This document shows positions 40,640 to 48,911 of a stretch of DNA of 52,905 bases, piece after piece. Under the pieces are notes generated by a model. That model made no database searches and was not told the DNA's origin. It saw nothing but the letters and a program-made list of their open reading frames with translations. The stretch is from Marinomonas sp. SBI8L (GTDB lineage: Bacteria; Pseudomonadota; Gammaproteobacteria; Pseudomonadales; Marinomonadaceae): the NCBI RefSeq assembly GCF_001624705.1, contig NZ_JSEO01000023.1, positions 1-52,905 on the forward strand, in the 5' to 3' direction. The stretch's first letter is position 1; the number at the start of each line of letters is the position of its first letter. Both the position numbers and the translations under genes were made by a program.

Positions 40640-41428
40640 CTAAGCTTGATGGGAATAAGCATAGCTAATAGAGCGAGCGATACACTCAAACCCATGTTTA
40701 GCGACAATTGGCTGGCTCATTTTAGAGGCATGAATACTCAAATACTTAAGCCCTTGGGCTTTAGCATCCTGAATACGTTTAGAGAGTAAAGCTGAGTAGA
40801 AACCTCTACCTCGATACTTTGCCAAAGTATTACCAGCCCAAATACTGCCAAAAGGGCTGTCAGGATGGCATATTAACCAGGCAGATGAAACGGGCTGATT
40901 ATCCTGATAAATCACATAAATACGTATTTGTTCTGGCGACTCTTGCTTAAGTCGCAACAAATGGGACTCTTGAGCAATACAGTCGCCACCCCAAACCTTC
41001 TTTTGAACTGAAATAGCATCTTTAATGCCTTTTTTATCATAAACCTCAATACAAATATCTTCAGGCTTTTCCATATGCTCACTCGTATCATTGAGCGTTA
41101 CATCATCAAGGTTCAACACCATCAAAGCGGTACTCTCTTCCGCTACAAAACCTTGTCGAATAAGGTTTTCACCCAATGAACTAGGTGCGTCCGTACTGAG
41201 AGTGTGCCATTTAAAGGGTACATTAAGTTGCTGATAAAACTTGATTTCAGCTTTTATTCTTTCCTCTAATGCTTCGACCTGAATATCAGAGTAAGAGATG
41301 CAGCTTCCTAAATCATAAGCTGAAACAAACTTCACTAGATCAGGAGTCTCCAACTTTTGACAACCCGCTAAGGTAAGCTCAATTCTTTCATACTGGTTAT
41401 ACGCCTTTAGAAGCTTGTTAGTACTCAA
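40640..41428 (-). CDS. GNAT-family N-acetyltransferase
   Basis: About 262 aa. The frame extends to a GTG at 41470, but a TTG at 41428 has AAGGAAA just upstream and starts the family-like STNKLLKAYNQYERI, so I prefer it. The N-terminal half (with NVPFKWHTLSTDAP) is a GNAT-like pseudo-repeat, and the C-terminal half holds the acetyl-CoA loop YRGRGFYSALLSKRIQDAKAQGLKYLSIHAS, then IVAKHGFECIA. The substrate is unknown. It is monocistronic. Confidence 0.78.
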   Translation of the reverse strand: MSTNKLLKAYNQYERIELTLAGCQKLETPDLVKFVSAYDLGSCISYSDIQVEALEERIKAEIKFYQQLNVPFKWHTLSTDAPSSLGENLIRQGFVAEESTALMVLNLDDVTLNDTSEHMEKPEDICIEVYDKKGIKDAISVQKKVWGGDCIAQESHLLRLKQESPEQIRIYVIYQDNQPVSSAWLICHPDSPFGSIWAGNTLAKYRGRGFYSALLSKRIQDAKAQGLKYLSIHASKMSQPIVAKHGFECIARSISYAYSHQA

Positions 41429-41572
41429 TGAGGTTTCCTTGAAAATGATCCAATTACTGAGAACAAGCACGTCTTATAAGTGCTTTTTTACAACTGTTTG
41501 TTAGATAAAAGCATTTTATACAAGAAGCATGAAAGAAGCTCAAACAAAGCATCAGTATTGGAGAGAAAGCCT

Positions 41573-41926: not shown

Positions 41927-42184
41927 TTTATGCCTAATTCGTTTTTACGATAACTATTTCGCGGTTTTAACGTCAACTTAAATTCAGCGCCATCACGGTC
42001 GCTGTGTCAGGACAAAGTGACGAAAACTGATCGGTATTTTGAATAGCCAAAGGCACTTCGTTTCTTATTACTGGCGAGAAACCCAAAACTTTAAAGTAGT
42101 TTTCTGCGCTATTAGTAAGTAGATATAAGCTGGAAACACCTTGCTGATGTGCACTAGCTTGAAGATGTAGAACAATAGCTCTAG

Positions 42185-42456
42185 CTAGGGAACCTGCGAT
42201 TAAGTCACCTCTTCTCAGTCTTTTCAGAAAAAGTATCACACAAGGCGTTACTTTGACGTAATGTAGGTACCTTTCGAGAAGTGACAACACAGGATGATAC
42301 TTTTTTCTGAAAGACCCGAAGGGCGTGGTCTAAAAGCCCTATATCTATGTTGAGGACCTTATCAATAGAATAACTATTAAGTTACGCTCCTCGCCATATA
42401 TCTAGCGGCTTTTATCCTCACGCTGAGGCGGGAGGACTTATTCGCAGGTTCCCTAG
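42185..42456. mobile_element. 264-bp MITE with IS5-like ends and CTAG target duplication
   Basis: The element spans 42189-42452. Its ends are GGAACCTGCGATTAAGTC on the left and, read inward on the other strand, GGAACCTGCGAATAAGTC on the right: 17 of 18 match. CTAG flanks it at 42185-42188 and 42453-42456. It has no transposase. TIR style and the 4-bp CTAG duplication fit the IS5 family, which would have to mobilise it in trans. An inner inverted repeat (42224-42238 with 42295-42310) gives extra fold-back structure. Confidence 0.88.
42224..42310. repeat. Inner inverted repeat of the MITE
   Basis: TCAGAAAAAGTATCA (42224-42238) pairs with TGATACTTTTTTCTGA (42295-42310) with a single extra T, around a 56-nt loop. 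It is nested inside the terminal repeats. Confidence 0.75.
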
Positions 42457-42760
42457 ATCCTTTCCCCTATATTCTTGCTGTACCACTATCGAGCGAATTA
42501 ATGCCACACGCCCATAAATCTCAGTACCACCCACTGCAATAATCTTGTTATCTTCCCGACAAACAATGAAGTTTGAAAGATGTTTTTGACAATCTTCATA
42601 GGGTAAATCAGACTCTTGCAGTAACCTTTCAATCTCATTTAAGTCTTTAATTTCTGCTTTGCTAAATACCATTTTTTCATCCTTATAATCTGCTTTATTA
42701 GCGTCACTCTTTCACCAGATAATAGACGTTAACAGGCATTCTGTAAGGAAGTAGCAAGAT

Positions 42761-42830: not shown

Positions 42831-44087
42831 TTAACAACAGCCAGAAATATTATCTTCTTTCGCTTCTTTTTTAGCCGGCTCAAATGTACCCATTGCGGCG
42901 ACAGCAGATTTAAGAAGTTCAAACGATTTAACTATGTTAAAGCGAGAGGTTGCTATGTTCATACGCATATACTGCGGGCTCTTAGCACCAAACCAAATCC
43001 CTGGGGTTAAACCCATTTTGGCTTGTTTGAAGACTAAAGATTTCAGTGTTTCTTCATCTAGACCAAGCCCTGAGAAATCAAACCAAACTTGATAAGTGCC
43101 CTCAGGTTTAAAGACCCGTATTTGGGGAATATTGTCCGCTATAAAGTCTTGTATCCAAACCTGCGTTTCTTCTAGATAAGCCAACATTTCATCTAACCAA
43201 GCAGCACCCTTTTCATAAGCTGCTATCGTAGCAAAACTTGTAAAGGCATTACCGTGATCGAGATACATACCACTGACTTCATGCTTAATTGTGCTAAGGA
43301 GTGATTGGTTATTCGTATATACATACCCATTTGAAATACTGTGCATGCCAAAAGTTTTAGCGGGTGAGCCAATCAGGGTAATAATATTCTCATAATCAAA
43401 GCTGGCTAAACTGATGAATTTGCTATCAAAAAATATAATGTCTGAATGTATTTCATCACTGATAATCAAAACCTGATGCCTTGCCGCAATTGCTACTAGC
43501 AGCTCAAGTTCAGCCTGAGACCAGACTCGCCCTGTTGGATTATGAGGATTGCAAAAGATTATGGCTTTAACATTTTCAGCTTGGATTTGGCGCTCGAACT
43601 GCTCAAAGTCAATTTGGTAGCCGTTACCATCTACATCACTCAGTTCATTTACATCATCAATAATAAGCTCGCTTTTAACCAGCCTACGATCTGCTTTATT
43701 AATTAAATTAGCAAACTGATGGTAGGCAGGTGTATGGATTAAGACAGCATCACCCGCTTGAGTGAACTGTCGGAGCAAGAGCGCGATACCAGAAAGTACA
43801 ACTGGTACTTGTACAAAGTTTTTCTCTGATAATTCAATATGATGACGTGTTGAATACCAATGACTAATAGCACTAAAGATCCCCTCTTCGTTAAACTCAT
43901 AGGCAAATACACCACGCTTAACTAATCGGTCAAGCTCTTGAGTGATGGGTTGAGCTACCTGAAAATCTATATCAGCAACCCAATAAGGGAAAATATCCGT
44001 CGTACCATAAAAGTTATTAAGCATCTCAGGCTTAGTTTTGATAAAAGTATTGTCGCCACGACTTAAAGTATTATCGAACTGACTCAT
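42831..44087 (-). CDS. MalY/PatB-like PLP aminotransferase (probable cystathionine beta-lyase)
   Basis: 418 aa. The MalY/PatB opening DIFPYWVADIDFQVAQPI is present, with FCNPHNPTGRVWS, ISDEIHSDI (PLP-binding Asp and the MalY-type EIHSD), GSPAKTFGMHS with the PLP lysine, and YMRMNIATSR with the carboxylate Arg. The family breaks C-S bonds in cystathionine or cysteine. The last about 20 residues form a charged tail ending SGCC, unusual for the family. The LysR gene lies 139 bp upstream on the same strand. Confidence 0.9.
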   Translation of the reverse strand: MSQFDNTLSRGDNTFIKTKPEMLNNFYGTTDIFPYWVADIDFQVAQPITQELDRLVKRGVFAYEFNEEGIFSAISHWYSTRHHIELSEKNFVQVPVVLSGIALLLRQFTQAGDAVLIHTPAYHQFANLINKADRRLVKSELIIDDVNELSDVDGNGYQIDFEQFERQIQAENVKAIIFCNPHNPTGRVWSQAELELLVAIAARHQVLIISDEIHSDIIFFDSKFISLASFDYENIITLIGSPAKTFGMHSISNGYVYTNNQSLLSTIKHEVSGMYLDHGNAFTSFATIAAYEKGAAWLDEMLAYLEETQVWIQDFIADNIPQIRVFKPEGTYQVWFDFSGLGLDEETLKSLVFKQAKMGLTPGIWFGAKSPQYMRMNIATSRFNIVKSFELLKSAVAAMGTFEPAKKEAKEDNISGCC

Positions 44088-44226
44088 AGGGTCTCCGTTT
44101 ATTGTTAAAGGTTGAATACCTAATAAGACGGAGCCGAAGAAAAAAAGACGACGTTAATGGTTATTTAGATGAAATTAATGCTCAATGGCGTTAATAACAC
44201 TATGTAAATTTGCCCTCTGTAAAAGC

Positions 44227-45138
44227 TCAATCCCCTTGAATGATCTTATCAAGCTGTACCAGTATCGCCCTCATCTGTTGGTTCATTGGCGTATTTGTTG
44301 AGAGACACAAACAGAGCTTTTCGCTTAAGCGTTTTTCTTTTAATGGATGAAAGCATAATTCGTTATTAGCAAGCTCTTTTGCCACATCAAACTGAGTTAA
44401 AAAAGTCACCCCACGACCTGCTATCACCCACTGTTTTAATACATTTACCGAGTTACTGGTGGCACACAAAGTATGGGCCTTTTTCTGTCGCATGATTTCG
44501 GCGTAAATTCTGGGTTGAAAAGACAACTCATCATCGGCTAAACAAAGCGGCCATTGTAAGCATTCAGCCAAAGGAACCGGGGTATTTGAAACTAGATTTG
44601 ACTCTGCAAGATTTAAACTTGGTGGATAAATAAGGCCAATTGGGCAATCAACATGGCTAAAAAGACGAACTTGGCGATTATCTTGTACATTAAACGCAAT
44701 AATGACATCTAACTCACCCGACTCCAATTGTGCTAATAAGGCATGAGTGTTTCCGACTTTAATATCCAATCTATATTGTCCAAAAATGTGGTCCAACCCT
44801 TGCTCAATTTCTTGAGGTAAGGTTTGGCTTAAACATTCCATAATTCCGAGTTTTAACACCACTAGACTTTCTTTATTAATGCGCTGCATTTCAAGTCGTA
44901 AGTGTTTATCTTGCTTGCGCCAAAATTCAGCCTTGTTCAGCAACTCGCGACCAGACTCAGTCACCTCGATACCCCGAGGTAAACGAATAATTAATTTAGA
45001 GCCATAGTCTTCCTCTAAAATACGCATTTGTCGGCTTAAAGCAGACGCAGAAATATTCAACTTATTGGCAGCTTTTCGCACAGACCCTTCGTTCGCTATT
45101 TCGATAAATGAAATCAGCTCTTTTGAAAATGCTGTAAT
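44227..45138 (-). CDS. LysR-family regulator, probably starting at ATT
   Basis: 303 aa if begun at ATT (45138). The frame from the first usual start (GTG, 45081) would lack helix 1 of the HTH. Upstream, in the same frame, TAFSKELISFIEIANEGS supplies the missing LysR N-terminus, and AAGGAG (45150-45145) sits 6 nt before the ATT. The rest is typical: RKAANKLNISASALSRQMRILEE, then a substrate domain to IIQGD. It lies upstream of the MalY-like gene, same direction, and may control it. Confidence 0.85.
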   Translation of the reverse strand: MTAFSKELISFIEIANEGSVRKAANKLNISASALSRQMRILEEDYGSKLIIRLPRGIEVTESGRELLNKAEFWRKQDKHLRLEMQRINKESLVVLKLGIMECLSQTLPQEIEQGLDHIFGQYRLDIKVGNTHALLAQLESGELDVIIAFNVQDNRQVRLFSHVDCPIGLIYPPSLNLAESNLVSNTPVPLAECLQWPLCLADDELSFQPRIYAEIMRQKKAHTLCATSNSVNVLKQWVIAGRGVTFLTQFDVAKELANNELCFHPLKEKRLSEKLCLCLSTNTPMNQQMRAILVQLDKIIQGD

Positions 45139-45339: not shown

Positions 45340-45828
45340 ATGAATCAAGCAGAGCAAGATAACCATTGGCTTAAGCAAACACTAAACCTATCTCAAGCTT
45401 CAGTCGATGCAGGCAACCACCCTTTTGGCGCCTTATTGGTAATAGATAATAAACAAGTATTAAAGGCTGAGAACACAGTTAATACTTGTCACGATGCGAC
45501 TCGCCATGCTGAGATGAACCTTGTTAGCCAAGCGTGTCAAAACTTAAGCGAGAGCCAGCGTAAAGAGGCTGTACTCTATACCTCAACAGAGCCCTGTGCC
45601 ATGTGTGCTGGTGCCATTTATTGGTCTGGCATCAAGCAAGTCGTCTATGCTTGTAGCGGTAGTGAATTAAACGACATTGCTGGTAAAAGCTTAATTTGCC
45701 ATAGCGAAGACGTGTTTACAGGCGCGGTAAATCCACCAAGAGTCAGATCTACTCAATCACAATTACTCATTGAGCAAGCTTGTGAACAACATAAAAAATA
45801 TTGGATTGAAGACTGGTCATGTCTTTAG
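45340..45828 (+). CDS. Nucleoside/guanine deaminase-like protein (CMP/dCMP deaminase fold)
   Basis: 162 aa. Zinc site: His57-Ala-Glu59 (RHAEMNL) and Cys86/Cys89 in PCAMC, with HPFGALLV at the N-terminus. The order and the TSTEPCAMCAGAIYWSGI stretch are those of guanine deaminase and TadA-like deaminases; the single-copy TadA of a cell usually differs at its C-terminus, so a free base or nucleoside is the likelier substrate. It is monocistronic; the ATG has only a weak GGTAAA before it. Confidence 0.87.
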   Translation: MNQAEQDNHWLKQTLNLSQASVDAGNHPFGALLVIDNKQVLKAENTVNTCHDATRHAEMNLVSQACQNLSESQRKEAVLYTSTEPCAMCAGAIYWSGIKQVVYACSGSELNDIAGKSLICHSEDVFTGAVNPPRVRSTQSQLLIEQACEQHKKYWIEDWSCL

Positions 45829-47993: not shown

Positions 47994-48911
47994 ATGACTT
48001 TCTCCATGTTTAAGAATAAAACCGTACATTTTTCAGCACGTAAGAAAGGCGTATTGGCATCGATAATCGCGTCTTGTTTATTTGCCATGCTGCCCCTTTA
48101 TGTACAGTTTCAACCGAGCCTAACAGGAACCGCTTCTGAAGCGGGCCATTGGTTAACGGGTCAAAGAGTTTTGTGGAGCTCTGTCATTATGTTATTGGGA
48201 TTAGCCCTGGTTGGGCGAATCTCTAAATTATGGGAACAATTAAAGCAGTGGCGGTTGTGGCCGAGCTTTTTTCTTTCTGCCTGTTTGATTGCACCACAGT
48301 TTTGGATTTTTGTCTGGGCGCCATTACAAGGTGAAATACTTTCTGTGGCGTTAGGTTATTTTGCACTCCCTCTGACCTTGGTTGCCGTTGGCTATTTTGT
48401 GTATGGTGAACAATTAACCCGAGCACAATGGCTTGCATGCATGATTGCAGCTTCTGGTGTAATTTATGCCTATGTGATTGCTGATGGTATCTCGTGGATT
48501 GTATTAGTCATTGCATTAGGCTATCCATTGTACTTTATGAATCGCCGACGTTTCTCAATCGCCAGCGACATAGTATTTACCTTAGACAATCTCTTTATAT
48601 TGCCAATCGCACTGCTTGCCATGGTCTATTTACACCCTTTCAATGAATGGCCACACATTGAGCTTTGGTCTTGGGCTTATTTCCTAGGGTTAGGGCTAAT
48701 AGGCACTTTACCCATGCTTTTATTTTTATTCGCCTCACAAAAACTCCCGCTCAGCCTGTTCGGATTACTGACTTATATAGAACCCACATTGGTTTTTTGT
48801 CTTGGCCTAATACTGGGTGAACGTATCGAGCTAATCCAATGGCCAATCTATGGCGCGATTATGCTTGCCTTGTTATTAATTGCTATCGATAGAGATAAAC
48901 GAAATCGTTAG
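47994..48911 (+). CDS. rarD: EamA/RarD-type membrane transporter
   Basis: 305 aa, about ten hydrophobic helices in two EamA halves. KGVLASIIASCLFAMLPLYVQF, GHWLTGQRVLWSSVIMLLGLAL, GYFALPLTLVAVGYFVYGEQLTRAQWLA and SLFGLLTYIEPTLVFCLGLILGE are the RarD landmarks. It is a drug/metabolite-type exporter with unknown substrate. The ATG at 47994 has no strong ribosome site; an ATG two codons further is also possible. Confidence 0.87.
   Translation: MTFSMFKNKTVHFSARKKGVLASIIASCLFAMLPLYVQFQPSLTGTASEAGHWLTGQRVLWSSVIMLLGLALVGRISKLWEQLKQWRLWPSFFLSACLIAPQFWIFVWAPLQGEILSVALGYFALPLTLVAVGYFVYGEQLTRAQWLACMIAASGVIYAYVIADGISWIVLVIALGYPLYFMNRRRFSIASDIVFTLDNLFILPIALLAMVYLHPFNEWPHIELWSWAYFLGLGLIGTLPMLLFLFASQKLPLSLFGLLTYIEPTLVFCLGLILGERIELIQWPIYGAIMLALLLIAIDRDKRNR

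Follow-up and report, generated by a model that had tools for sequence, protein, structure and literature searches.

The 264-bp element found in the window (the whole stretch of 52,905 nucleotides of Marinomonas sp. SBI8L that was analyzed) carried an inner inverted repeat that belongs to a larger conserved structure, a two-armed fold of about 262 nt. The same interior was found between different end sequences, some with 4-bp duplications and some with TA flanks, and in most elements of the order one module was present in both arms, in opposite orientations. The best explanation, to which we give a probability of roughly two in three, is a non-autonomous element moved by several transposases and retained for an orientation-neutral fold of its DNA or RNA, a function that we infer.

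The element in the window and the split ArsN2-like gene

The element spanned positions 42189-42452 (numbering of the whole window) and was framed by CTAG at 42185-42188 and 42453-42456, as seen in the sequence and by repeat search. Its terminal repeats (GGAACCTGCGATTAAGTC / GGAACCTGCGAATAAGTC; 42189-42206, + strand, and 42435-42452, - strand) matched at 17 of 18 positions and were also recovered by the end pattern, the left one forming the outer part of stem P1. The MITE of 264 bp with a 4-bp CTAG duplication, as described in the initial annotation, was confirmed in the sequence, and its lack of a transposase was supported; the element was short, with terminal inverted repeats, a target duplication, no transposase gene and multiple genomic copies. 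Inside P1, stem P2 (42213-42218 with 42423-42428; repeat search and alignment) enclosed a left arm (42219-42314), in which stem P3 encloses stem P4 (42247-42254 / 42278-42285) and module M lies in + orientation, a central hairpin P5, CCC-GAA-GGG, near the element midpoint (42315-42323), and a right arm (42324-42422) with stems P6, P8 and P7 and module M in - orientation. The arms were placed by alignment, and the stem columns of P2, P3, P4 and the P6-P8 arms were mapped by hand. The inner inverted repeat (42218-42238 / 42295-42315, repeat search), singled out earlier as an unusual nested repeat, was present; that account was incomplete, the repeat being one arm of a conserved, covarying and roughly mirror-symmetric fold.

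Insertion of the element broke an ArsN2-like gene on the reverse strand, whose N-terminal piece lies at 42453-42672 and whose C-terminal piece lies at 41973-42188 (profile match and homologue alignment). The ORF 42672..42418 matched NF040501 (ArsN2) at model positions 2-67 with 63 bits and the ORF 42290..41973 at 64-132 with 79 bits, both under the cut-off of 125 bits when the pieces were scored separately and not joined; the two matches meet at model positions 64-67, in agreement with the host gene first proposed. An intact homologue of 164 aa from another Marinomonas genome aligned through residues 31-94 with the first piece, at 33% identity, and through residues 92-158 with the second, at 48%, and this alignment on both sides of the junction supports the suggested insertion at the acetyl-CoA loop. 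The 700 nt from 42672 to 41973, less 264 + 4, leave 432 nt or 144 codons including the stop, with the two frames in register, so that the ancestral frame of 144 codons, derived here arithmetically with the letters of the two pieces left unjoined, was borne out.

Homologues of the split gene were found in two of the 56 other genomes searched (G013, 46% identity, and G038, 45%), and a third match to the query, in G025, was a copy of the element itself, so that no empty copy of the insertion site was found among these 56 genomes. The clean join had been read as a sign of recent insertion; with the nearest other copy 96.2% identical (among the 40 own-genome copies listed) and no empty site found in those genomes, a recent date is at best weakly suggested. 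The surroundings of the broken gene included a second GNAT acetyltransferase-like gene (40640-41470; Acetyltransf_1, 23 bits) and, at 42831-45081, 45340-45828 and 47994-48911, a PatB-like C-S lyase (336 bits, cut-off 340), a LysR-type regulator, a TadA-like deaminase (73/150 bits) and a RarD transporter (160 bits, cut-off 130). The C-terminal part of an IS1182-family transposase (249 bits, cut-off 270) was located at the contig start (16-717).

Allowing up to three mismatches, the end pattern gave 152 matches in the own genome (77 forward, 75 reverse) and none when reversed, which argues that the element ends are not chance. At least 40 full-length matches were counted, comprising the window copy and 39 others of 84-96% identity, and family traces occupied at least 78 separate places, 40 of them with a full-length match; this lower bound was merged from DNA searches, end-pattern matches (100 of the 152 used) and genome listings. 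Other copies, to which the initial annotation had looked for confirmation, were thus abundant. Among the 40 own-genome copies listed, identity to the nearest copy had a median of 96.3% and reached 98% in three pairs; identical 4-bp flanks were displayed by 27 (16 TTAA, 10 CTAG, 1 CTAA), and at 29 no flanking ORF of at least 90 aa reached more than 10 bp into the element. A degenerate core pattern, which does not match the window copy's own variant, was found in 19 stretches of the GTDB collection, all 19 in Marinomonas records; this collection may lack records from the window's genome.

Several variants were observed. An own-genome subfamily (L039, L040, L042, L043, L046) measured 278 bp (286 with duplications) through a 15-bp insertion in the left-arm loop, and paired element ends only 56 and 89 bp apart (G000, C23:392854-392909 and C10:34229-34317) represented much smaller derivatives. 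At locus L077, two left ends (positions 478 and 504) lay 26 bp apart before one element.

Covariation and probable strand neutrality of the fold

Elements of other Marinomonas genomes had lengths near 262 and differed from the window copy in what looked like paired changes. Twenty-eight elements (14 own and 14 of other Marinomonas genomes) were aligned with MAFFT; over 60 hand-drawn pairs, 93.6% of 1679 cells paired, and double-sided changes occurred in 28 of the 60. This count was made without P2 and the outer P3, a block that MAFFT placed one column apart in the own copies. Doubly changed cells amounted to 197; shuffles gave 69.2, with none of 500 as high, and sliding the pairs gave 14-46. 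Further pair types were as high in 67 of 500 shuffles. Alignment A2 comprised 28 of 33 representatives, with L039, L040, L075, L097 and L115 omitted as length variants, and the 33 had been chosen without L077, L086, L089, L092, L095, L104 and L109. All-against-all column covariation mixed true pairs with apparent clade signal and was discarded as evidence.

Own-genome copies were deliberately omitted from alignment A4, and the 17 elements used to train covariance model R1 all came from other Marinomonas genomes. R1 found the window copy over model positions 1-262 with 207.5 bits on the + strand (E 2e-59) and 74.1 bits on the other. Model R2 was built from 29 elements (alignment A6), comprising 23 of the 35 order loci and six Marinomonas elements, two of them own, which makes R2 partly dependent on the window's genome; A6 omits 12 order loci (L168, L178-L187, L104), and the 35 include one Marinomonas locus (L163). 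In A6, 59 of 71 pairs were doubly changed; the 517 doubly changed cells compare with 142 after shuffling and 68-116 after sliding. In the class set the figures were 67 of 71 pairs and 1535 cells, compared with 439 after shuffling and 260-310 after sliding. Both alignments are model-fitted, and the class count covers both strands (57 rows for 29 loci). Across the family, the interior was better conserved than the ends. The window copy folded better than 200 of 200 shuffles on both strands, as DNA (z -7.3 and -9.1) and as RNA (z -7.6 and -8.7). Rfam gave no match at the gathering score for the window stretch and 19 of the 35 order loci, and three matches up to E 1; snR77 (24 of 50 bits), mir-5681 on L191 (37/88, E 1e-4) and mir-301 on L183 (25/56) were taken as chance.

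With fixed structures, the ratio of G·U to A·C was 58:50 in the order (A6), 46:65 in the class (one strand per locus) and 82:49 within Marinomonas, the last count including P2 and the outer P3 after a one-column block shift in 15 rows. G·U was thus little commoner than A·C, and neither strand's transcript appeared clearly favoured. As a control, RNAalifold on RNase P of the order (29 genomes; 29 of 30 loci, L253 omitted) gave 304:30 on its own strand and 208:123 on the other, about 10:1 and 1.7:1. The elements gave 224:137 and 226:168 on the two strands in the order and 145:115 and 173:96 in the class, or 1.3-1.8:1 on either strand, and so resembled, on both strands, an RNA read on the wrong strand. 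An RNA gene read from one strand was not favoured, since G·U was not enriched at order and class level and only mildly in excess in Marinomonas; taken together, the 82:49 within Marinomonas and the RNAalifold ratios leave a weak strand preference possible.

The left arm resembled the reverse complement of the right arm with z of at least 3 in 26 of the 35 order elements and below 3 in nine. Among five Marinomonas elements, 24, 19, 1, 6 and 151 of 200 shuffles were as high, the first value being that of the window copy, whose arm symmetry is not significant. The shared module, drawn from 51 non-Marinomonas elements, read about CaAGGCG - stem - AATG..CCTT - stem - CAACgCAG, with the unpaired inner-loop motifs AAGGC and AAC kept in both arms. 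Of the 29 class loci, L209 matched R2 on one strand and the other 28 on both, 57 matches in all, to be read with the caveat that hairpins are self-complementary.

Double changes could also be mutational rather than selected, as template switching at imperfect palindromes is generally understood to copy one arm onto the other; such a process would suit pairs that are nearly all Watson-Crick, with G·U not favoured at class level, but leaves unexplained both the loop motifs kept in the two arms and the length near 262, and we regard it as very improbable.

A perfect DnaA box, TTATNCACA, was observed in the right arm, on the 3' strand of P6, in 31 of 40 own elements. In a second element set (39 Marinomonas, one other) it was present in 34 of 40. 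Binding of DnaA as a general function was rejected, the box being found in none of the 35 order and 29 class elements and missing in the window copy, which has one mismatch in the 42410-42420 region. With dozens of copies in a genome, the box could titrate DnaA.

One interior, different ends and probably different transposases

Beyond Marinomonas, R1 found elements in 57 of 293 genomes and 31 of 118 genera of the order, eight of the 57 being Marinomonas. R2 extended the family to 118 of 369 genomes (94 of 272 genera) over the class and to 68 of 299 genomes (36 of 153 genera) over the phylum, 39 of these 68 labelled outside the class; the three draws overlap and are not additive, and at most the best 5 or 6 candidates per genome were scored. 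A control set of RNase P loci from the order, 98,222 bases in total, scored at most 7.3 bits. A full-length element (R2, 93.7 bits) was located on plasmid pAcX50f of Azotobacter chroococcum, for which blastn gave one 51-bp match; this came from the fourth element used against plasmids, the other three giving nothing. No match was obtained in phages or in E. coli genomes with one element as query, or in viral contigs with one exact pattern. Outside the class, matches of about 160 bp (G881 C64; G825 C112, C53 and C4; G807 C22; G878 C115) corresponded to a compact form of the fold.

Element length stayed near 262 across the order and class sets, and the flanks varied. The 35 order elements had identical 4-bp flanks in 16 cases, YTAR-like but different flanks in seven, symmetric TA in two and others in 10; the corresponding numbers for the 29 class elements were 4, 7, 6 and 12. 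IS5 elements duplicate 4-bp YTAR targets and IS630 elements TA. The TA-flanked group (L178, L180, L214-L218, L221) carried other end sequences, and its flanks presumably point to an IS630-type transposase. We know of no report of one covarying interior carried on different ends.

For the window copy, the evidence points to the IS5 family. In a genome from another family of the order (G042), IS5 elements of about 1.16 kb carried GGAACCTGCGAATAA at both ends, and one 19-bp end, GGAACCTGCGAATAAGTCC, was identical to the window element's right end. The three copies read were flanked by TTAG/TTAG (L267), CTAA/CTAA (L269) and TTAG/CTAG (L268), hence identically in two; this common end with 4-bp duplications upholds the IS5 link, earlier drawn from family knowledge. 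L267 encodes a transposase of 323 aa, and a related transposase from a Marinomonas genome (L139) matched the IS5-family model NF033581 with 353 bits against a cut-off of 140. Close ends were also found at two other Marinomonas IS loci (L143 and L146). A search with the first 55 aa of the G042 transposase gave hits in 28 of 57 genomes, the window's own not among them. The full-length IS with the same ends expected by the initial annotation therefore exists in G042, and none was found in the own genome by the IS5 N-terminus search; with the assembly in 69 contigs, this absence is not final. Own-genome DDE transposases (PF01609, PF05598) showed no matching ends in the loci read and were set aside as partners. 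PF01609 matches were also noted at four further genome places, two being no more than 200 bp from the end of a contig. The window copy would thus have been moved in trans by an IS5-family transposase making 4-bp YTAR duplications.

The existence of IS5 elements with the same ends would equally suit an ordinary MITE, namely an IS5 element that lost its middle and whose interior is passive. Against this, the interior shows covariation and is found again in many genera with differing ends, and R2 gave no match up to E 0.1 in the four IS5-bearing loci searched (L137, L138, L143, L146), which makes this origin hardly credible. Compared with the IS5 family, the window element shares an end and the duplication habit (TTAG and CTAA in G042 copies) but has no transposase gene, its interior was not found in the IS5 loci tested, and other members of its family carry other ends.

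Working form of the fold and its significance

Over the whole element, P1 and P2 pair the ends, followed by the two arms, with the small hairpin at the centre, and pairing is kept by double changes with no preference for G·U over A·C at order and class level. In the proposed mechanism, evolution would keep the interior rather than the ends, presumably because the fold works in either orientation. The working form may be single-stranded or extruded DNA, or transcripts from either strand; the fold would expose the module twice to a host factor and draw the ends together, and different transposases would then move the element.

The two working forms differ in how well they suit the central loop, which was R-N-A in 123 of the 134 elements in which the hairpin was found (of 144 elements, with L104 entering in two sets, 10 gave no hairpin). 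We take this triloop to be a DNA rather than an RNA type of motif and, since G·U was also not favoured at class level, we lean towards DNA over RNA from both strands. It is unlikely, on the same ground of the triloop, that the fold is an RNA working whichever strand is transcribed, i.e., a mobile mRNA module that softens insertions, for instance as a ribonuclease III substrate or a protein-binding RNA. That reading draws on the good RNA folding of both strands of the window copy and on the two flanking ORFs of at least 90 aa, which at 27 of the 40 own copies run the same way (16 in one orientation, 11 in the other), so that copies are likely transcribed either way. It also has a precedent in the Correia repeats, which ribonuclease III cuts in transcripts (PMC10969869).

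Returning to the non-autonomous element kept for its fold, structured bacterial MITEs offer likenesses by description alone: as described in PMC10969869, Correia/NEMIS, ERIC, BOX and Coxiella QMITE are short dispersed elements with stable stem-loops, as here, and QMITE2 has ends of 23-29 bp and a core of 113-145 bp. The R200 repeats of Pseudomonas fluorescens (320 bp, 47 copies in SBW25; PMC2718517) are likewise dispersed and from the same class, and were set beside the element by description and not by sequence. In REP/REPIN, IS608 and attC the recognised form is folding DNA (see also PMC6006769), whereas the element described here has 4-bp duplications and terminal repeats. No description of the element family was found in the open-access literature searched.

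More tentatively, and with some doubt, the family may represent a mobile folded-DNA module, roughly mirror-symmetric and of about 262 nt, that rides on unrelated transposases across Pseudomonadota and is retained through the binding partner of its two inverted modules, which would make the ends exchangeable and the interior the true unit of selection.

MITEs are usually viewed as conserved ends around passive filler. In this family a covarying two-armed fold takes the place of that filler and keeps to about 262 nt across many genera, and it is the ends that change. The covariance models now allow dispersed copies to be found, and it becomes testable whether a non-autonomous element is held together by nucleic-acid structure and not by its transposase.
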